Positions 4,020 to 60,208 of a stretch of 64,000 nt of DNA are shown piece after piece. Position numbers and translations under genes: made by a program. The stretch is taken from contig FCOD02000027.1 in the NCBI GenBank assembly GCA_001544655.2, positions 18,408-82,407 of the forward strand, in the 5' to 3' direction. Numbering within the stretch: position 1 is the first letter of the stretch; each line of letters begins with the position of its first letter. Origin of the DNA: Caballeronia turbans (lineage in GTDB: Bacteria; Pseudomonadota; Gammaproteobacteria; Burkholderiales; Burkholderiaceae). Below the pieces are notes generated by a model, which did no database searches, was not told the origin of the DNA, and saw nothing but the letters and a program-made list of their open reading frames with translations.

Positions 4020-5717
4020 TTAGAACGTCGACCAGTCGCCGTCAGCCGCTGCCACAACAGCTGCCGGCTTCGGTGCACTCGACGGCTTCAGCACTCGCGT
4101 CGTCGTGCCGCTCTTCTTCGCGTGTGCGGCGCGCGGCGTCTGAGCAGCACTGTTACTGAGTGGCTGAACGGCAAGCGTCTGACCGGTGCGGAACACTCCT
4201 ACGGCGGTGGTGAGTTGCTTTGCTTGGTCCTCCATCGAACCTGCCGCGGCCGCTGCCTCCTCAACGAGCGCTGCGTTCTGTTGCGTCACCTCGTCCATCT
4301 GTGAGATGGCTTGGTTCACTTGCTCAATGCCACGGCTTTGCTCGTTCGAAGCCAAGGCGATCTCGCCCATGATGTCGGTGACGCGTTGGATGGCAGTGCC
4401 AACTCGCTGCATGGTTTCCCCTGCCCGCGCGACAAGTTCCGTACCGGCTTGAACTCGGTTGCCGGACCTTTCGATTAGATCTTTGATCTCCTTCGCCGCG
4501 GCTGATGAGCGCTGTGCGAGACTTCGAACCTCGCTTGCCACTACCGCAAATCCACGGCCTTGCTCGCCTGCGCGCGCCGCTTCAACTGCCGCGTTCAGCG
4601 CCAAAATGTTCGTCTGGAAGGCGATGCCTTCGATCATTACGATGATCTCAGCGATCTTCGCGGAACTCTCCTCAATGCCCGCCATCGTGTCGATGACTTG
4701 ACCGGCGATGGCCCTGCCCTCGTTGGCGACGACGTTGGCGTTGTCCGCCAGCCCGCTCGCCTGCTTGGCGTTCTCAGAATTCTGCTTGACCGTCGAGGTT
4801 AGCTCTTCCATGCTCGCGGCAGTTTCTTGAAGTGATGCCGCTTGCTCCTCGGTACGCGATGACAGGTCCGTGTTGCCGGCAGCGATCTGTTTGCTGGCGC
4901 TGGCAATCGCCTCACTGCTCAGCCGGACAGTGCTGACAGTGGCGGCCAATTTTTCTTTCATGGCGGCGATGCCGGCAAGCAATTGGCCCATCTCGTTGCG
5001 CGTCTTAATCGACACCTCGTGGGTGAGGTCGCCGTCCGATATGTGCTCGAAATGCTTCAGCGCCTCGCCAAGTGGCGTCATGATGGCCCGGCGCAGGAAG
5101 AACCAGCCGAGCGCTGCGGTAGCAACTCCAACTAGCAAGGCCAACATCCCTAGGGTGCGCATCTCTGACACGCGGGCGTCGCTCTCGGCCGTCTGACGCT
5201 TCGCATCGGCGATTTGGAAGTCCTGCAGCTTCGCGAAGGCTTCGATACACCGGGTATATGACGTGGGCATATCCTGGAAAGCGATGCGCCCGATCGCTTC
5301 TTTGTCGCCCGCTTCAATCGCAGCGCCGAATCTGTTGATTGCCTGTTGCATAACGGCGCGGGATTCGGCAACGCTCTTTGCCAGTTGATCCTCGTCGGCT
5401 CCGCGCGGTAGGGAGTCATACTTGCTGTACCACTCGTCTGACTGACGCATGAATCCGTTCGCGCGTGCGATCAGTCCGCCCGCGTCTTTGTCCGTCGGAT
5501 TTATCGCGTAGCGGTCGAGCGCAAGCCGGGCACGAGCGATGTAGTTGTTTGAAATGCCGAGGGCGTTGACCGCCGGTAGCGAATTCTCAGAGATGTCTTT
5601 GGTCGATGAATAGGTAGCACTGATGCCGTACAACCCGAAACCGACTGACAGCGCCAGCAGAAAACCGAGGAAAGCCATGGTGAGCGCAAGCCGCGCCCGA
5701 ATCGTCAGGTTCTTCAT
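4020..5717 (-). CDS. Methyl-accepting chemotaxis protein with CheR/CheB tether
   Basis: Inner-membrane chemoreceptor, 565 aa. Visible parts in order: TM1 (about residues 8-30), periplasmic four-helix-bundle sensor (about 31-188), TM2 (about 190-208), HAMP (about 210-262), and a long cytoplasmic coiled-coil signalling domain with the conserved tip around [20 protein letters not shown]. After a Pro/Ala linker it ends in DWSTF, which fits the xWxxF pentapeptide that tethers CheR and CheB in high-abundance receptors. The cheY gene follows. GCCGATAG at 5805-5812 resembles a flagellar sigma-28 -10 element, but I see no good -35. The ligand is unknown; the second MCP in this window is a close paralogue. 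Confidence 0.93.
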
Positions 5718-5982
5718 TGTTCTTGCTTCTAGCGCTTAACAGTAAAGGCAGTGCGATCGCGCGGTCGCGGTGCCTTCCGCTTCTGGGATAGAAGCGATCA
5801 GTGTCTATCGGCACCAAACCCCACGCGCTCCAGTGAAATTTTCTACGGCGGCACGCGACGGGGGCGTACCGGTAACGATGACCGCACACGCGCCCTGCGC
5901 CTCTCGTATGGCTGACTTGACTTAAGGGCGTTATTGGTAAGCTTCTAGGGATCTAGTAGCCGCACAGCGACGCCACGAACCG

Positions 5983-6717
5983 ATGCCCAAAAGAAATCCC
6001 ACGAAGTCGCAGCGCGCAATGATGGAGTTGCTCGATCAGGGCTTACCGGTCGAGCAGATTGCAAACAGTCTCGGCAAGAGCGCCTTGGCTGTAAAGAAAC
6101 AGCTATACCGGATCAAACGGCGAGTCCGCGAAGGAAGGATTGCCCTCTCTCCTCTGCCGATCGAGCGCGCCGCGAGCGAACCACGCATCTACCTTGCCGG
6201 CTTCGATGTCTTCCGCCGTGACGCGAAAGAACACGGCGAACGCCTGAAGCAGCTCTGCCGCAATCGCGGCTTTGTTGGCCTCTATCCACTCGACGGACAA
6301 CTGCCCTCCTCGCTTCAACGGCAAGACGCTGCTCGATGGATATATGCCGCGAACATCGAACTGATCCGGTCGGCCGATATCGTGATGGCGAACCTCGATG
6401 ATTTTCGCGGGTTCGGCGACCCAGACAGCGGAACGGCTTTTGAAGTTGGTTTCGCGGCCGCTCTCAACAAACCGGTGTGGGCCTATCGCTCCACCGAGGA
6501 AACGCTTGTTGAGCGCGTGAAGGCAGCGGCGATCGGGAGTGAAGGCGGTTTTTGTGCCGGCGGCTACCTGATCGAGGACTTTGGCCTGAGCGTTAATCTG
6601 ATGCTGGCGTGCTCCGCGCGGCTCGTTGTCGGCGGACCGGCTGCTTGCCTAGACGCCATTCGAAGCGAGGTCGACGGAGGCCCCCGCGTTGATGGCTGGG
6701 GGTTGGCGAAGCGTTAG
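5983..6717 (+). CDS. HTH-fused nucleoside 2-deoxyribosyltransferase
   Basis: The first 50 residues form a helix-turn-helix of sigma-region-4/LuxR style (QIANSLGKSALAVKKQLYRI, about 25-45). Residues about 66-170 are a nucleoside 2-deoxyribosyltransferase fold: RIYLAGFDVF at the start, IRSADIVMANLDDFRG in the middle, and DSGTAFEVGFA with the presumed catalytic Glu at 154. Family enzymes move deoxyribose between bases or hydrolyse (deoxy)nucleosides and nucleotides. The fusion suggests DNA-linked sensing or an element-encoded nucleotide hydrolase. The last 45 residues are unassigned. The recombinase-like gene starts 47 bases downstream on the same strand. Confidence 0.78.
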   Translation: MPKRNPTKSQRAMMELLDQGLPVEQIANSLGKSALAVKKQLYRIKRRVREGRIALSPLPIERAASEPRIYLAGFDVFRRDAKEHGERLKQLCRNRGFVGLYPLDGQLPSSLQRQDAARWIYAANIELIRSADIVMANLDDFRGFGDPDSGTAFEVGFAAALNKPVWAYRSTEETLVERVKAAAIGSEGGFCAGGYLIEDFGLSVNLMLACSARLVVGGPAACLDAIRSEVDGGPRVDGWGLAKR

Positions 6718-6764
6718 CTTCGCTGTAGGGTTTGGGTTAAGCGAACTTCAGTATATCGACTTTT

Positions 6765-7697
6765 ATGCCCGATGATACTTGGCTTGTTGCACCCGAAGAC
6801 GCCTATGCCCAGTGGCAACGCGAAGAAGCGACGGGCGAGGATCGCCGCGCATTTGCTGACCGGTCGATCGTGCAGCACCGTTCGATGTTCTCGCGCTTCA
6901 ACGACTATCTGATTGCGCACGGCGCGACAGTGGCGAGCTTCGGGGCGGACCATATCGATGGATTCTTCGCGGAACTTGCGCAGGACTGCGCGCCCGGCAC
7001 GACGACTCGCCTGCGTTACCTGAAGCTGATTGACCGGGTCACGCGTCACCTCGTGAACATTGAACTGCGCACCGATAAACCGGCCGCGTTGATGTTAGTC
7101 AACGAGAACTGGCCACAAGACGAGCCAACGCCGATCTATCTTTCACCGGAAGACGATGCACGGCTACAAGCGGTGTGCGTTGCAACCGAAGGCGAGGCGT
7201 TCAAGGAACTGCGAAACACGGCGATCGCGGCGCTCTTCCTTGCGTCAGGCGTCACAGCCGCCGAACTTAGGCAGTTGCGCGTCGACGACCTCGATACGCG
7301 TGGCGAGCGCCCTACTGTCTTCGTCGACAAGCACGGTCCGCGGATTGCACGACGGGTTCCGATCGATGCCTTCGCTATCGACGTACTGCGCAGCTATCAC
7401 GAAGCGCGCAGCCGCATTCAGTCGCCAACGCAATGGTTGTTCATCGCCACGGCGGGCGGCAAGCCGATGCAGCCGGATACGATGCTGAAATGTGTCCGCG
7501 TAGCGCTACGCCGCGCGGACTTGTCGGCGGCCGACGAGAGCCCGCGCTTACTCAGAAACACGTTCGGGCGTCGGCACATCCTCGCCGGCAAGACCAACGA
7601 GCAAGTGAGCAATCTAATGGGCTTGTCGAGCCATCGCACGGCGACTCGCCTTCGTCAAACACTTGGGTCGTGCGAGGCGTCCGAAGCACAGGCTTAG
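6765..7697 (+). CDS. Tyrosine-recombinase-like protein lacking catalytic residues
   Basis: 310 aa with a SAM-like N-terminal core-binding domain (about 25-115) and an integrase-type C-terminal fold (about 125-300). Aligned by eye with XerC/D-type motifs, the active site is mostly gone: Arg-I of GxRxxEL is Thr164, the His of HxxR is Arg261 (the Arg264 of that motif is kept), the third His/Trp is Leu287, and the nucleophilic Tyr position is Leu296. It cannot be a normal strand-transferase; a DNA-binding or structural role is inferred. It lies directly after the deoxyribosyltransferase fusion. Confidence 0.75.
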   Translation: MPDDTWLVAPEDAYAQWQREEATGEDRRAFADRSIVQHRSMFSRFNDYLIAHGATVASFGADHIDGFFAELAQDCAPGTTTRLRYLKLIDRVTRHLVNIELRTDKPAALMLVNENWPQDEPTPIYLSPEDDARLQAVCVATEGEAFKELRNTAIAALFLASGVTAAELRQLRVDDLDTRGERPTVFVDKHGPRIARRVPIDAFAIDVLRSYHEARSRIQSPTQWLFIATAGGKPMQPDTMLKCVRVALRRADLSAADESPRLLRNTFGRRHILAGKTNEQVSNLMGLSSHRTATRLRQTLGSCEASEAQA

Positions 7698-7807
7698 TGG
7701 CTTGCGGCCGGCGTCGGTCACAACCGGTGATCGGACTTTATGACGCGCATGTCCCTGTCACCTGGTCCGTGCAGGATCAGTACGTTGATCGGAATACCGT
7801 CATCGCG

Positions 7808-8269
7808 TCAACGCTTACCAGATGCTTTGTCACGGTCTTCCTGCGTGCCCAAACGACCGTTCGACTTCGCGCGTCGAGCCGGCGCACGCGTCACGCTGGA
7901 ACCACCCTTGAGCCATCGATCAACGGCTATATAGCGGGCGTGTGAGAATTCGACCATCTTATGTACCGCTTCAGCCGTCTGTATTTGTCGTGCGATTTCG
8001 ACAGGGATTTCACCACAGGCGATTAACACGCCCTTTCCGCTGATCGCCTGCTCTATCGTCTTCCCACGAAAGGAAAGACGTACGCGAAACGACGGCTGCT
8101 CATCTGCGTCTGGCGAGCATGCAACGTCAAGCGTCGAGCCCGCAAAGTCGGTCCACAATTCGGCGAGTCCAGGGTGCTCACTCCCAGTCAGCTCCGCGGC
8201 ACGGTCGAAGCCATCATTCACCTTCGTTATGGACCGGCTGTCGGGGTCAATCAGGTAACACAGGAACAT
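7808..8269 (-). CDS. Hypothetical protein, 153 aa
   Basis: Start placed at MFLCYLIDPDSRS because GGAGG stands five bases before it; the longer in-frame extension is Arg-rich and lacks such a site. The N-terminal half looks like a small alpha/beta domain (residues about 1-100, with a FRVRLSFRGKTIEQAI strand segment) and the C-terminus is basic and disordered (APARRAKSNGRLGTQ). Converges with the recombinase-like gene. Function not recognised. Confidence 0.6.
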   Translation of the reverse strand: MFLCYLIDPDSRSITKVNDGFDRAAELTGSEHPGLAELWTDFAGSTLDVACSPDADEQPSFRVRLSFRGKTIEQAISGKGVLIACGEIPVEIARQIQTAEAVHKMVEFSHARYIAVDRWLKGGSSVTRAPARRAKSNGRLGTQEDRDKASGKR

Positions 8270-8565
8270 GTCGCCTCCGGCACTTGGACGTCCATCTCCG
8301 AATCGCGTGAGCTCACTGCGTTCGTTGAATGGGTTGCTGGCCCGACCCAAGGACGCCAGCCACACGGTCGGCGGGAGCACACAGCGCGCCGTGTTGCTGA
8401 TCTCCGCTTTAAGCATAGGAGCAAAAAAGAGCCCTGAGCGCGGCTTTCGCGTTCGCCAGACCAAAAACGGGATGGGCTGAGGCGAGACTCGTCACCAGGA
8501 TCCAGGAGTCCGCTGTGGCATCCGCCTTGCTTCAATTTCAAGAAAGACATTTCAGAGCGAAAAGG

Positions 8566-59062: not shown

Positions 59063-60208
59063 TTATTCGGCACGCTTTTCGCATTGTAAAATGCGGTATA
59101 GGCCCGTTCTTGAGATGCCGAGCGCGTTCGCGGCTGCCTTTTTATTGCCATCGCTTGCAGCCAGTGCCTCCTGGACCTGTTCAATTGTCGGCTTAGGCGT
59201 CTTCAGTCGTCTCTGGACAGAATAGCTGGACAGATAAGCACCGGCCTTTTGCTCTTTGCTATGGCCGGCCGCCTCAACCACGGCTTGCATCGCTTCGCGG
59301 TGTAGCGCCGGGTCGGCCCTCTGTTCGCTGCCTTTGATCGGCGCAGGAACGCCGGTGTACTTTTCAAACATTTGCTGCAAGAACTGATGCCTTAGGCCGT
59401 GGCACGTAACGCCCAAGCCAGACTTCGTTACACCATGGCGTTTGAGAACCGTATAGAAGTGGTCCTTCCACTGAGTCTTGGTATAGCCGTCCGGGATAGT
59501 CGAGCCAGTAGACCGGTTGGTATGTTGAGCAGCTTCAAGTAGGACATCCAACTTGAACTCTATCGGCACCACACGAGCACGACCACCTTTTGTGCCGTGG
59601 ACCACGCTGAGCTTTCCGTCTTTACGGACTGCGTCTTTCGGCCGCAACAGGAGACTCTCTTCGACCCGTAGACCGAAGGCCGCCTGCAGCTTCATTTGCA
59701 CTGCGACCACGGGTTCCGTCTTCGCGATCTCTTCGATGATAGCTACCGCGTCGATCCCCTTGCCTTCCCATGACTTGTCCTCCGTCGCCACAGAGGTGCG
59801 CTGAAAGTCGTGCGCGGCTGGATCAATGTACTCCGACATCTTTTTGACCAGGTTCCGCTTATTTATCCAGTTCGAGAACGCGCGGAAGTACGTCAACTTG
59901 TTCTCGATGGTCCCGGGACACTGGCCGTTCTTGTGCCATAGTGCCACCAGACCTTCGATGTGCTTTTCCTTGAGCGCATACGGTGTTTGTATTGCGTAGC
60001 CGATCTGGCGAAGCTCAACAAACGAACGGCAAAGCTTTTGCAGTCGGGGCTCCTGTGTCCCGACGGATATCGGCTTATTGCTGACACGGGTACGGCTGTG
60101 AACACGGTTGACGTTCGGAGTGAAGATCTTTTCAAGTGCATCCCGGAACGCGGGTGGAAGCTCGGGATAGCCCGCAACGATGCCCTTCACATAGACGGTT
60201 ACTGTCAT
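59063..60208 (-). CDS. Tyrosine integrase with C-terminal Fis-type HTH
   Basis: 381 aa. N-terminal SAM-like DNA-binding part (about 50-125), then the catalytic domain with Arg181 (FGLRVEESLLL), probable Lys207, His270/Arg273 (CHGLRHQF), His316 (AAGHSKEQ) and nucleophile Tyr325 or Tyr329. The site is complete, unlike the recombinase at 6765. After the catalytic domain come about 40 residues (TIEQVQEALAASDGNKKAAA, then NALGISRTGLYRIL) forming a Fis/NtrC-type helix-turn-helix, an unusual addition. Probable role: plasmid multimer resolution or element integration. Confidence 0.88.
   Translation of the reverse strand: MTVTVYVKGIVAGYPELPPAFRDALEKIFTPNVNRVHSRTRVSNKPISVGTQEPRLQKLCRSFVELRQIGYAIQTPYALKEKHIEGLVALWHKNGQCPGTIENKLTYFRAFSNWINKRNLVKKMSEYIDPAAHDFQRTSVATEDKSWEGKGIDAVAIIEEIAKTEPVVAVQMKLQAAFGLRVEESLLLRPKDAVRKDGKLSVVHGTKGGRARVVPIEFKLDVLLEAAQHTNRSTGSTIPDGYTKTQWKDHFYTVLKRHGVTKSGLGVTCHGLRHQFLQQMFEKYTGVPAPIKGSEQRADPALHREAMQAVVEAAGHSKEQKAGAYLSSYSVQRRLKTPKPTIEQVQEALAASDGNKKAAANALGISRTGLYRILQCEKRAE

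Follow-up and report, generated by a model that had tools for sequence, protein, structure and literature searches.

Recombinase-fold proteins without a working active site are already known, namely MrpR, Tfp and GinC (PMC10516654, PMC10214605). In the portions of these two reports used here, MrpR is a crystallised protein with the recombinase fold and no recombination activity that binds repeated elements and represses its prophage, and its authors suspected a wider recruitment of dead recombinases (PMC10516654). Tfp from strand-biased circularizing elements and GinC from GInt elements have the fold without the RHRY motif; the Tfp operon holds two active recombinases and srap, and homologues shorter than 550 aa were filtered out as truncated (PMC10214605). 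We analyzed a comparable gene in a 64,000-nucleotide stretch of Caballeronia turbans (contig FCOD02000027.1, positions 18,408 to 82,407), here called the window, which is part of contig C81 in our numbering of a 7.35 Mb genome in 120 contigs. The gene (6765..7697, + strand) encodes a 310-aa pseudo-recombinase and belongs to a family kept on large plasmids and on second chromosomes or chromids of Burkholderia-like bacteria. We consider it fairly probable that the protein is a non-catalytic, DNA-binding, self-regulating backbone factor of secondary replicons; the binding, the autoregulation and the maintenance role are what we infer.

The family probably shares the tyrosine-recombinase fold with MrpR/YopR, the SPbeta master repressor, and with SroF of phage phi3T (PDB 9rd5, 9rgl). 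As far as the MrpR report was available to us, that protein also resembles the family in having lost catalytic residues and in being encoded by a mobile replicon, to whose upkeep it is tied; however, MrpR keeps Lys169 and Tyr304, whereas the window clade and its sister clade mostly lack the tyrosine, and it binds repeated SPBRE sites, whereas each gene here has one private candidate site, a putative operator (own genome, exact patterns; PMC10516654). MrpR belongs to a Bacillus prophage and the family to plasmids and chromids of Burkholderiales, and the likeness between them comes without demonstrated sequence kinship. Tfp and GinC resemble the family in having the fold without RHRY; unlike them, the window gene encodes only 310 aa and has no adjoining recombinase gene. 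With XerC, XerD and XerA the family shares the two-domain layout, a length of about 300 aa and the best sequence profiles, the top named profiles for the window protein being PRK00283, XerD and XerC. Unlike these enzymes, the window protein lacks Arg-I, His-II, the third His and the Tyr, has a lower positive charge and falls far short of the equivalog cut-offs (XerD 59.2 bits versus 329.6, XerC 53.6 versus 335.15).

The open reading frame (6765-7697, +) comprises 310 translated codons with zero stops, and its product matches the Pfam family Phage_integrase (PF00589) with an E value of 7.5e-12 and 45.8 bits against a cut-off of 27.1. In an alignment with XerD (PDB 1a0p), which stops at residue 290, Thr164 (codon 7254..7256, +), in the place of Arg-I, lies under the Arg of TGLR. 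Box II reads RLLR (codons 261-264; 7545..7556, +), where Arg261 replaces His-II and Arg264 is the kept Arg-II, the two lying under the His and the Arg of HxLR; Leu287 (7623..7625, +), in the place of the third His/Trp, lies under the His of LLGH. Leu296 (7650..7652, +) occupies the place of the tyrosine nucleophile. Columns 164, 261, 264, 287 and 296 thus read T-R-R-L-L in the window protein versus R-H-R-H-Y in three of three intact recombinases of the same genome, which served as the outgroup and which also have His where Asn265 directly follows box II in the window protein. Because the three intact enzymes show R-H-R-H-Y in those columns, realignment does not rescue the active site; no better alignment with a conserved Tyr or an Arg-His-Arg set was obtained, and a misalignment concealing the active site is ruled out by the XerD alignment together with the outgroup columns. 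The catalytic set of Arg, His, Arg, His/Trp and Tyr is absent, with Arg264 as its sole survivor. The first-pass annotation of this DNA, which had described four replaced catalytic residues, Arg264 alone left and an intact frame, is therefore borne out by both alignments and by the stop-free frame. The sequence of this protein rules out strand exchange through the known chemistry. Lys189, a residue absent from the first-pass annotation, may be the beta-hairpin lysine; 39 of the 45 sequences of our first alignment retain it, but most of the sister clade, where the alignment is loose, does not.

The same disarmed state is found throughout the family. The first alignment, whose 45 rows take in one sister-clade and one broken sequence (L016, L056), shows Thr164 in 41 sequences, Arg261 in 42, Arg264 in 45, Leu287 in 43 and Leu or Ile at 296 in 44. 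A larger set of 105 distinct relatives was derived from 122 proteins by removing identical tails, and stop-containing frames were excluded; the labels P and C in this set denote only the nearer query, with some sister-clade rows under P and the window-clade sequences L028 and L069 under C. None of these relatives is intact: Arg-II is present in 105/105, the third His/Trp in 0/105, the Tyr in 3/105, Arg-I in 1/105 (L147) and His-II in 2/105 (L090 and L069). The latter (77-829) is a truncated copy from Caballeronia temeraria, 88% identical, in which His stands where the window protein has Arg261; no other window-clade sequence among the 105 shows this. In the sister clade the five places are typically Lys, Gln, Arg, Phe and Leu. 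A tree was built from 43 ingroup rows (two identical pairs among them; duplicate loci and two partial frames left out) and three outgroup rows, all from one genome and on long branches. Here too every ingroup row lacks a complete site; Arg-II is found in 43/43 and the third His/Trp in 0/43, and the Tyr survives in 12 rows, Arg-I in two identical ones (L147, L158) and His-II in one (L090). From these residue states it follows that catalytic residues were lost in differing combinations and that Arg-II alone was never lost. Homologues with intact residues, which the first pass had named as refuting its reading, did not appear, either among the 105 relatives or among the 43 tree rows. At E<=1e-40, an order-wide profile search, blind to the state of the active site and scoring at most seven candidates per genome, found 24 matches, spread over 17 of the 300 genomes.

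The ratio of nonsynonymous to synonymous substitution rates (dN/dS) indicates that selection on the family is purifying. Across 42 stop-free coding stretches, 188 of 861 pairs were usable (dS between 0.1 and 1.5) and gave a median of 0.127 with a range of 0.05-0.55. The 14 closer pairs that include the window copy lie at 0.06-0.15; three distant pairs lie at 0.37-0.47, with dS above 1.3 and hence near saturation. Decay of family copies happens, but as the exception and not the rule: one related copy (L057/L028) has an in-frame stop, and fragments are present in several genomes. In L057 (6001-6930), from another species and of 95% identity, the adjoining deoxyribosyltransferase gene also aligns in two pieces. 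Decay confined to the single window copy is ruled out by the substitutions common to nearly all relatives together with the purifying selection.

The genome that contains the window holds a second family copy of 91% identity on contig C55 and a distant paralogue of 30% identity on C46. Window-clade copies occur in 28 of 58 genomes of the same genus (G000-G057, E<=1e-50), and the named relatives listed comprise 18 Caballeronia and three Paraburkholderia loci. Among the 72,556 records of the plasmid database PLSDB, 119 match at E<=1e-5, 105 of these over at least 80% of the query, led by Burkholderia (31) and Cupriavidus (30); the state of the active site was not inspected match by match, and the lowest-scoring ones may be recombinases of other kinds. 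Among the PLSDB matches listed, which are part of the 119, every record is at least 116 kb long. The sister clade, defined by the C46 paralogue, has matches in 150 of 249 family genomes at E<=1e-20, a few of the weakest of which may be window-clade genes. Identity as a phage integrase was considered and rejected, with only three weak matches among 50,697 phage records and no relative in one viral contig scan.

Upstream of the gene lies a conserved cis module. In the window it consists of a hairpin or dyad with 7-base arms and a GTTA loop (6706..6723, +), which overlaps the upstream gene's 3' end, its stop codon included, and of a TTCAGTATAT box (6747..6756, +) located 8 bases 5' of the ATG. 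The CAGTATAT core of this box recurs in 41 of the 43 window-clade upstream regions, that of the window gene included, and the layout in these 41 is the same: an inverted repeat (arms of 6-9 bases, loop of 3 or 4), 21-26 bases, CAGTATAT and the start codon. Arms of at least 7 bases occur in 34 of the 41 regions, a length reached by 29 of 8,200 mononucleotide shuffles, although the regions are related and not independent cases. In a set of 37 distinct regions, 98.8% of the cells pair, and slid registers all give at most 42%. Changes on both sides were seen in four of the seven pairs; 9 of 500 shuffles matched this, and 0 of 500 matched the covariation score. The arm sequences pass from GCGAAGC in Caballeronia to CGCGAATC in Burkholderia and CCGCCGC in Cupriavidus, and on this comparison of upstream regions the arms change between genera in a compensated fashion. 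Exact-pattern searches of the whole genome gave two matches for the hairpin and two for the box plus ATG, all at the two family genes. Other identities for the element were tried and set aside: a known RNA family (Rfam gave no hit at E 1 or lower for 5700-7000), a consensus promoter (no sigma-70-type site in 5600-7800) and a repeated operator regulon (none found in the own genome with exact patterns). The element was not seen in the upstream regions compared from the sister clade; in sister-clade loci (L143, L144, L151 and others) we noted by eye other recurring letters, e.g. CAACTAACGG or GTTAACAGTCA, within 150 bases 5' of the gene instead of the hairpin module.

Some sister-clade genes lie close to replication and partition genes. 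KfrA-type plasmid proteins, which in the portion of the literature used here are DNA-binding backbone proteins that aid plasmid maintenance (PMC7783346), form a different protein family and are no more than neighbors in the sister clade. A KfrA-like gene is convergent with the sister-clade gene in 40 of 61 loci, namely in 40 of 40 at 57% identity or more and in 0 of 21 at 48% or less; six genes are represented twice among the positive loci, which leaves 34 distinct genes. On chromosome 2 of B. cenocepacia the gene order is pseudo-Xer, KfrA, Rep, ParB and ParA, each named by Pfam, and in L143 the pseudo-Xer shares a stretch of 5.5 kb with genes for Rep and a KfrA-like protein. The C46 paralogue of the window's own genome lies about 5 kb from a ParB gene, the relative on Vitreoscilla pVF1 adjoins parB, parA and rep, and in Massilia one gene stands between the relative and parAB.

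We propose a site-specific, self-regulating binder that does not cut because the family profile, the C-terminal arginines and the private upstream element are kept and because MrpR provides a precedent. The conserved arginines of the C-terminal domain are R193, R196, R261, R264, R269, R270, R291 and R295. The Burkholderiales family would descend from Xer-like tyrosine recombinases that lost strand exchange long ago. The protein may bind a specific site without cutting it and control its own expression via the upstream hairpin/dyad and the TTCAGTATAT box, and the bound DNA might serve replicon upkeep, regulation or architecture, by analogy with MrpR in the SPbeta prophage. The dead site, its conservation, the replicon association and the cis module are the observed steps of this scheme. 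The first-pass proposal that the protein was retained as a DNA-binding or architectural factor fits the family-wide disarmed state under purifying selection; the role it suggested as partner of the helix-turn-helix (HTH) enzyme encoded upstream finds no support. A bolder version, in which each secondary chromosome or megaplasmid of Burkholderiales has its own disarmed Xer maintenance factor and the plasmid clade reads a private folded hairpin, a recombinase and its core site having been turned into a non-cutting control or segregation switch, strikes us as doubtful.

Several observations weigh against the proposed backbone factor. The charge of the window protein is about -2 overall and about -7 in residues 1-120, whereas the three intact recombinases of the same genome carry +12 to +18, and this low charge counts against DNA binding; median charges are +6 in nine window-clade rows and +8 in 34 other ingroup rows. 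The structure model has low confidence, with a mean predicted local distance difference test score of 65.5, which makes the fold ranks weak evidence: matches include SroF and MrpR/YopR, but at high root-mean-square deviation and with intact recombinases ranked equally high. (PDB chain 9i5v_14, 401 residues, labeled as the ribosome-associated inhibitor RaiA, also aligns as tyrosine-recombinase-like, and its label looks misplaced.) In 10 window-clade plasmid records the distance to the closest ParB-like gene ranges from 13 to 129 kb, and no ParB match was found on C81 or C55, the contigs of this draft genome that carry the two window-clade genes. In the sister clade, 21 of 61 loci, all at 48% identity or less and most with only about 0.7 kb of downstream DNA, have no KfrA neighbor; in C. 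metallidurans the gene lies 208 kb from the nearest ParB match, itself a weak one, and the part of the replicon's description used here puts repA-parAB at map point 2.43 Mb, not near the gene (PMC2864759). The account of the rep-par regions of B. cenocepacia omits the gene, and the main text around it nowhere contains the words integrase or recombinase (PMC4948915). In the portion used here of a transposon sequencing study of C. insecticola, the insertion-free genes of two plasmids were rep and par only (PMC10809759); these plasmids are from another strain and are not established carriers of a family gene. By analogy with them, plasmid maintenance in culture probably does not depend on such a protein. 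As for the cis module, the hairpin in Caballeronia shares bases with the last part of the upstream gene, and coding constraint may account for some of its conservation; each of the two whole-genome searches also returned one match to a reversed control pattern; there is one site per gene and no regulon, in one genome with exact patterns; and the window-clade members L084 and L088 have no module.

Several other explanations share part of this evidence. The dead protein could be a regulatory subunit that partners an active recombinase, XerC/XerD or another, and adjusts how dimers of the replicon are resolved. This would agree with the Xer profiles at the head of its matches, with the presence of intact recombinases in the same genome (three were aligned) and with the lost charge, which would fit a role in contacts between proteins; dimer resolution is a need of large circular replicons, as described for Enterobacteriaceae in the portion used of PMC11724359. 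The neighborhoods speak against it: no PF00589 match adjoins the gene on C81, and no intact recombinase is annotated next to it in the annotated neighborhoods of relatives, the nearest recombinase-type genes seen being an integrase fragment about 6.5 kb off in pHG1 and a second recombinase about 3.5 kb off beside a distant Thauera relative. We regard such pairing as unlikely. The behavior of the upstream arms, which vary yet stay paired, raises a further possibility, namely that the protein binds the element folded, as RNA or as single-stranded DNA during replication or transfer. The integron integrase reads attC in folded form. The loop is GNNA in 31 of 31 four-base cases and GNA in 7 of 10 three-base cases; its unsymmetrical G and A would be more natural in a hairpin than in a dyad bound by a dimer, and together with the switch between three and four bases they are hard to square with a dimer-read double-stranded site. 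We nevertheless hold this single-strand mode to be quite unlikely.

Cutting of DNA or RNA by a relocated nucleophile seems very improbable to us. Candidates exist in Lys189, Ser289 and Thr292, which are invariant in 15 sequences (Ser289 and Thr292 at 95% in 42), but Arg-I, His-II and the third His are gone together and the sister clade lacks the same candidates. That the window copy is a decayed, functionless integrase could draw on the broken relatives mentioned above (the stop in L057/L028 and the fragments in several genomes); against this stand the substitutions shared by nearly all relatives, the low dN/dS of the closer pairs, the intact frame and the conserved upstream element. We find this explanation scarcely credible, and in our view family-wide conservation refutes it.

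The neighbors of the window-clade genes differ between genera. Directly 5' of the window gene, 5983..6717 (+) encodes an HTH-like N-terminus, a weak sigma-70 region 4 match below the cut-off, joined to a nucleoside 2-deoxyribosyltransferase (PF05014). This gene is found in the same position in 12 of 12 loci L057-L068 and in L078 and L079, all Caballeronia; it was not found in the other 25 loci compared, including Paraburkholderia, Burkholderia and Cupriavidus, among which L069 and L145 begin too near the gene to tell and L070 barely reaches. Of the two features whose conservation the first-pass annotation had proposed to test, the substitutions recur in nearly all relatives, whereas the upstream neighbor is conserved in Caballeronia only, and an obligate partnership with the deoxyribosyltransferase is ruled out. 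A methyl-accepting chemotaxis protein (4020..5717, -) is a frequent Caballeronia neighbor, and a downstream gene without assigned function (7808..8464, -) is common to several Caballeronia loci, both by Pfam and locus comparison. Plasmids of Paraburkholderia and Burkholderia encode, 3' of the pseudo-recombinase and on the same strand, a product of about 155 aa that has no Pfam match (L080:8038-8490, L081:3998-4474, L082:7983-8465, L092:7983-8459, L093:7984-8448), and these five proteins are mutually related. In pHG1 the next gene encodes an HU protein. Elsewhere in the window, 59360-59704 (-) gives a second, weak Phage_integrase match (28.6 bits) in a 393-codon open frame (G000:C81:77767-78111), and G000:C40:57968-62703 of the same genome contains five tyrosine-recombinase matches inside 5 kb on both strands, possibly an integrative element of the multi-recombinase type.

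In the open-licence literature examined, with subscription journals and supplements outside its scope, we found no description of a replicon-backbone family of dead recombinases with its own cis module, and we know of no earlier description of the module itself. Dead tyrosine recombinases have so far come from a few phages and integrative elements; here they form a sizeable family, located on the replicons to which Burkholderia-like genomes owe their multipartite structure, and most members carry an integrase or recombinase annotation. The compensated upstream element is a candidate binding site ready for testing. If the maintenance role is true, the origin region of chromosome 2 in Burkholderia-like bacteria would have a component unmentioned in that literature.
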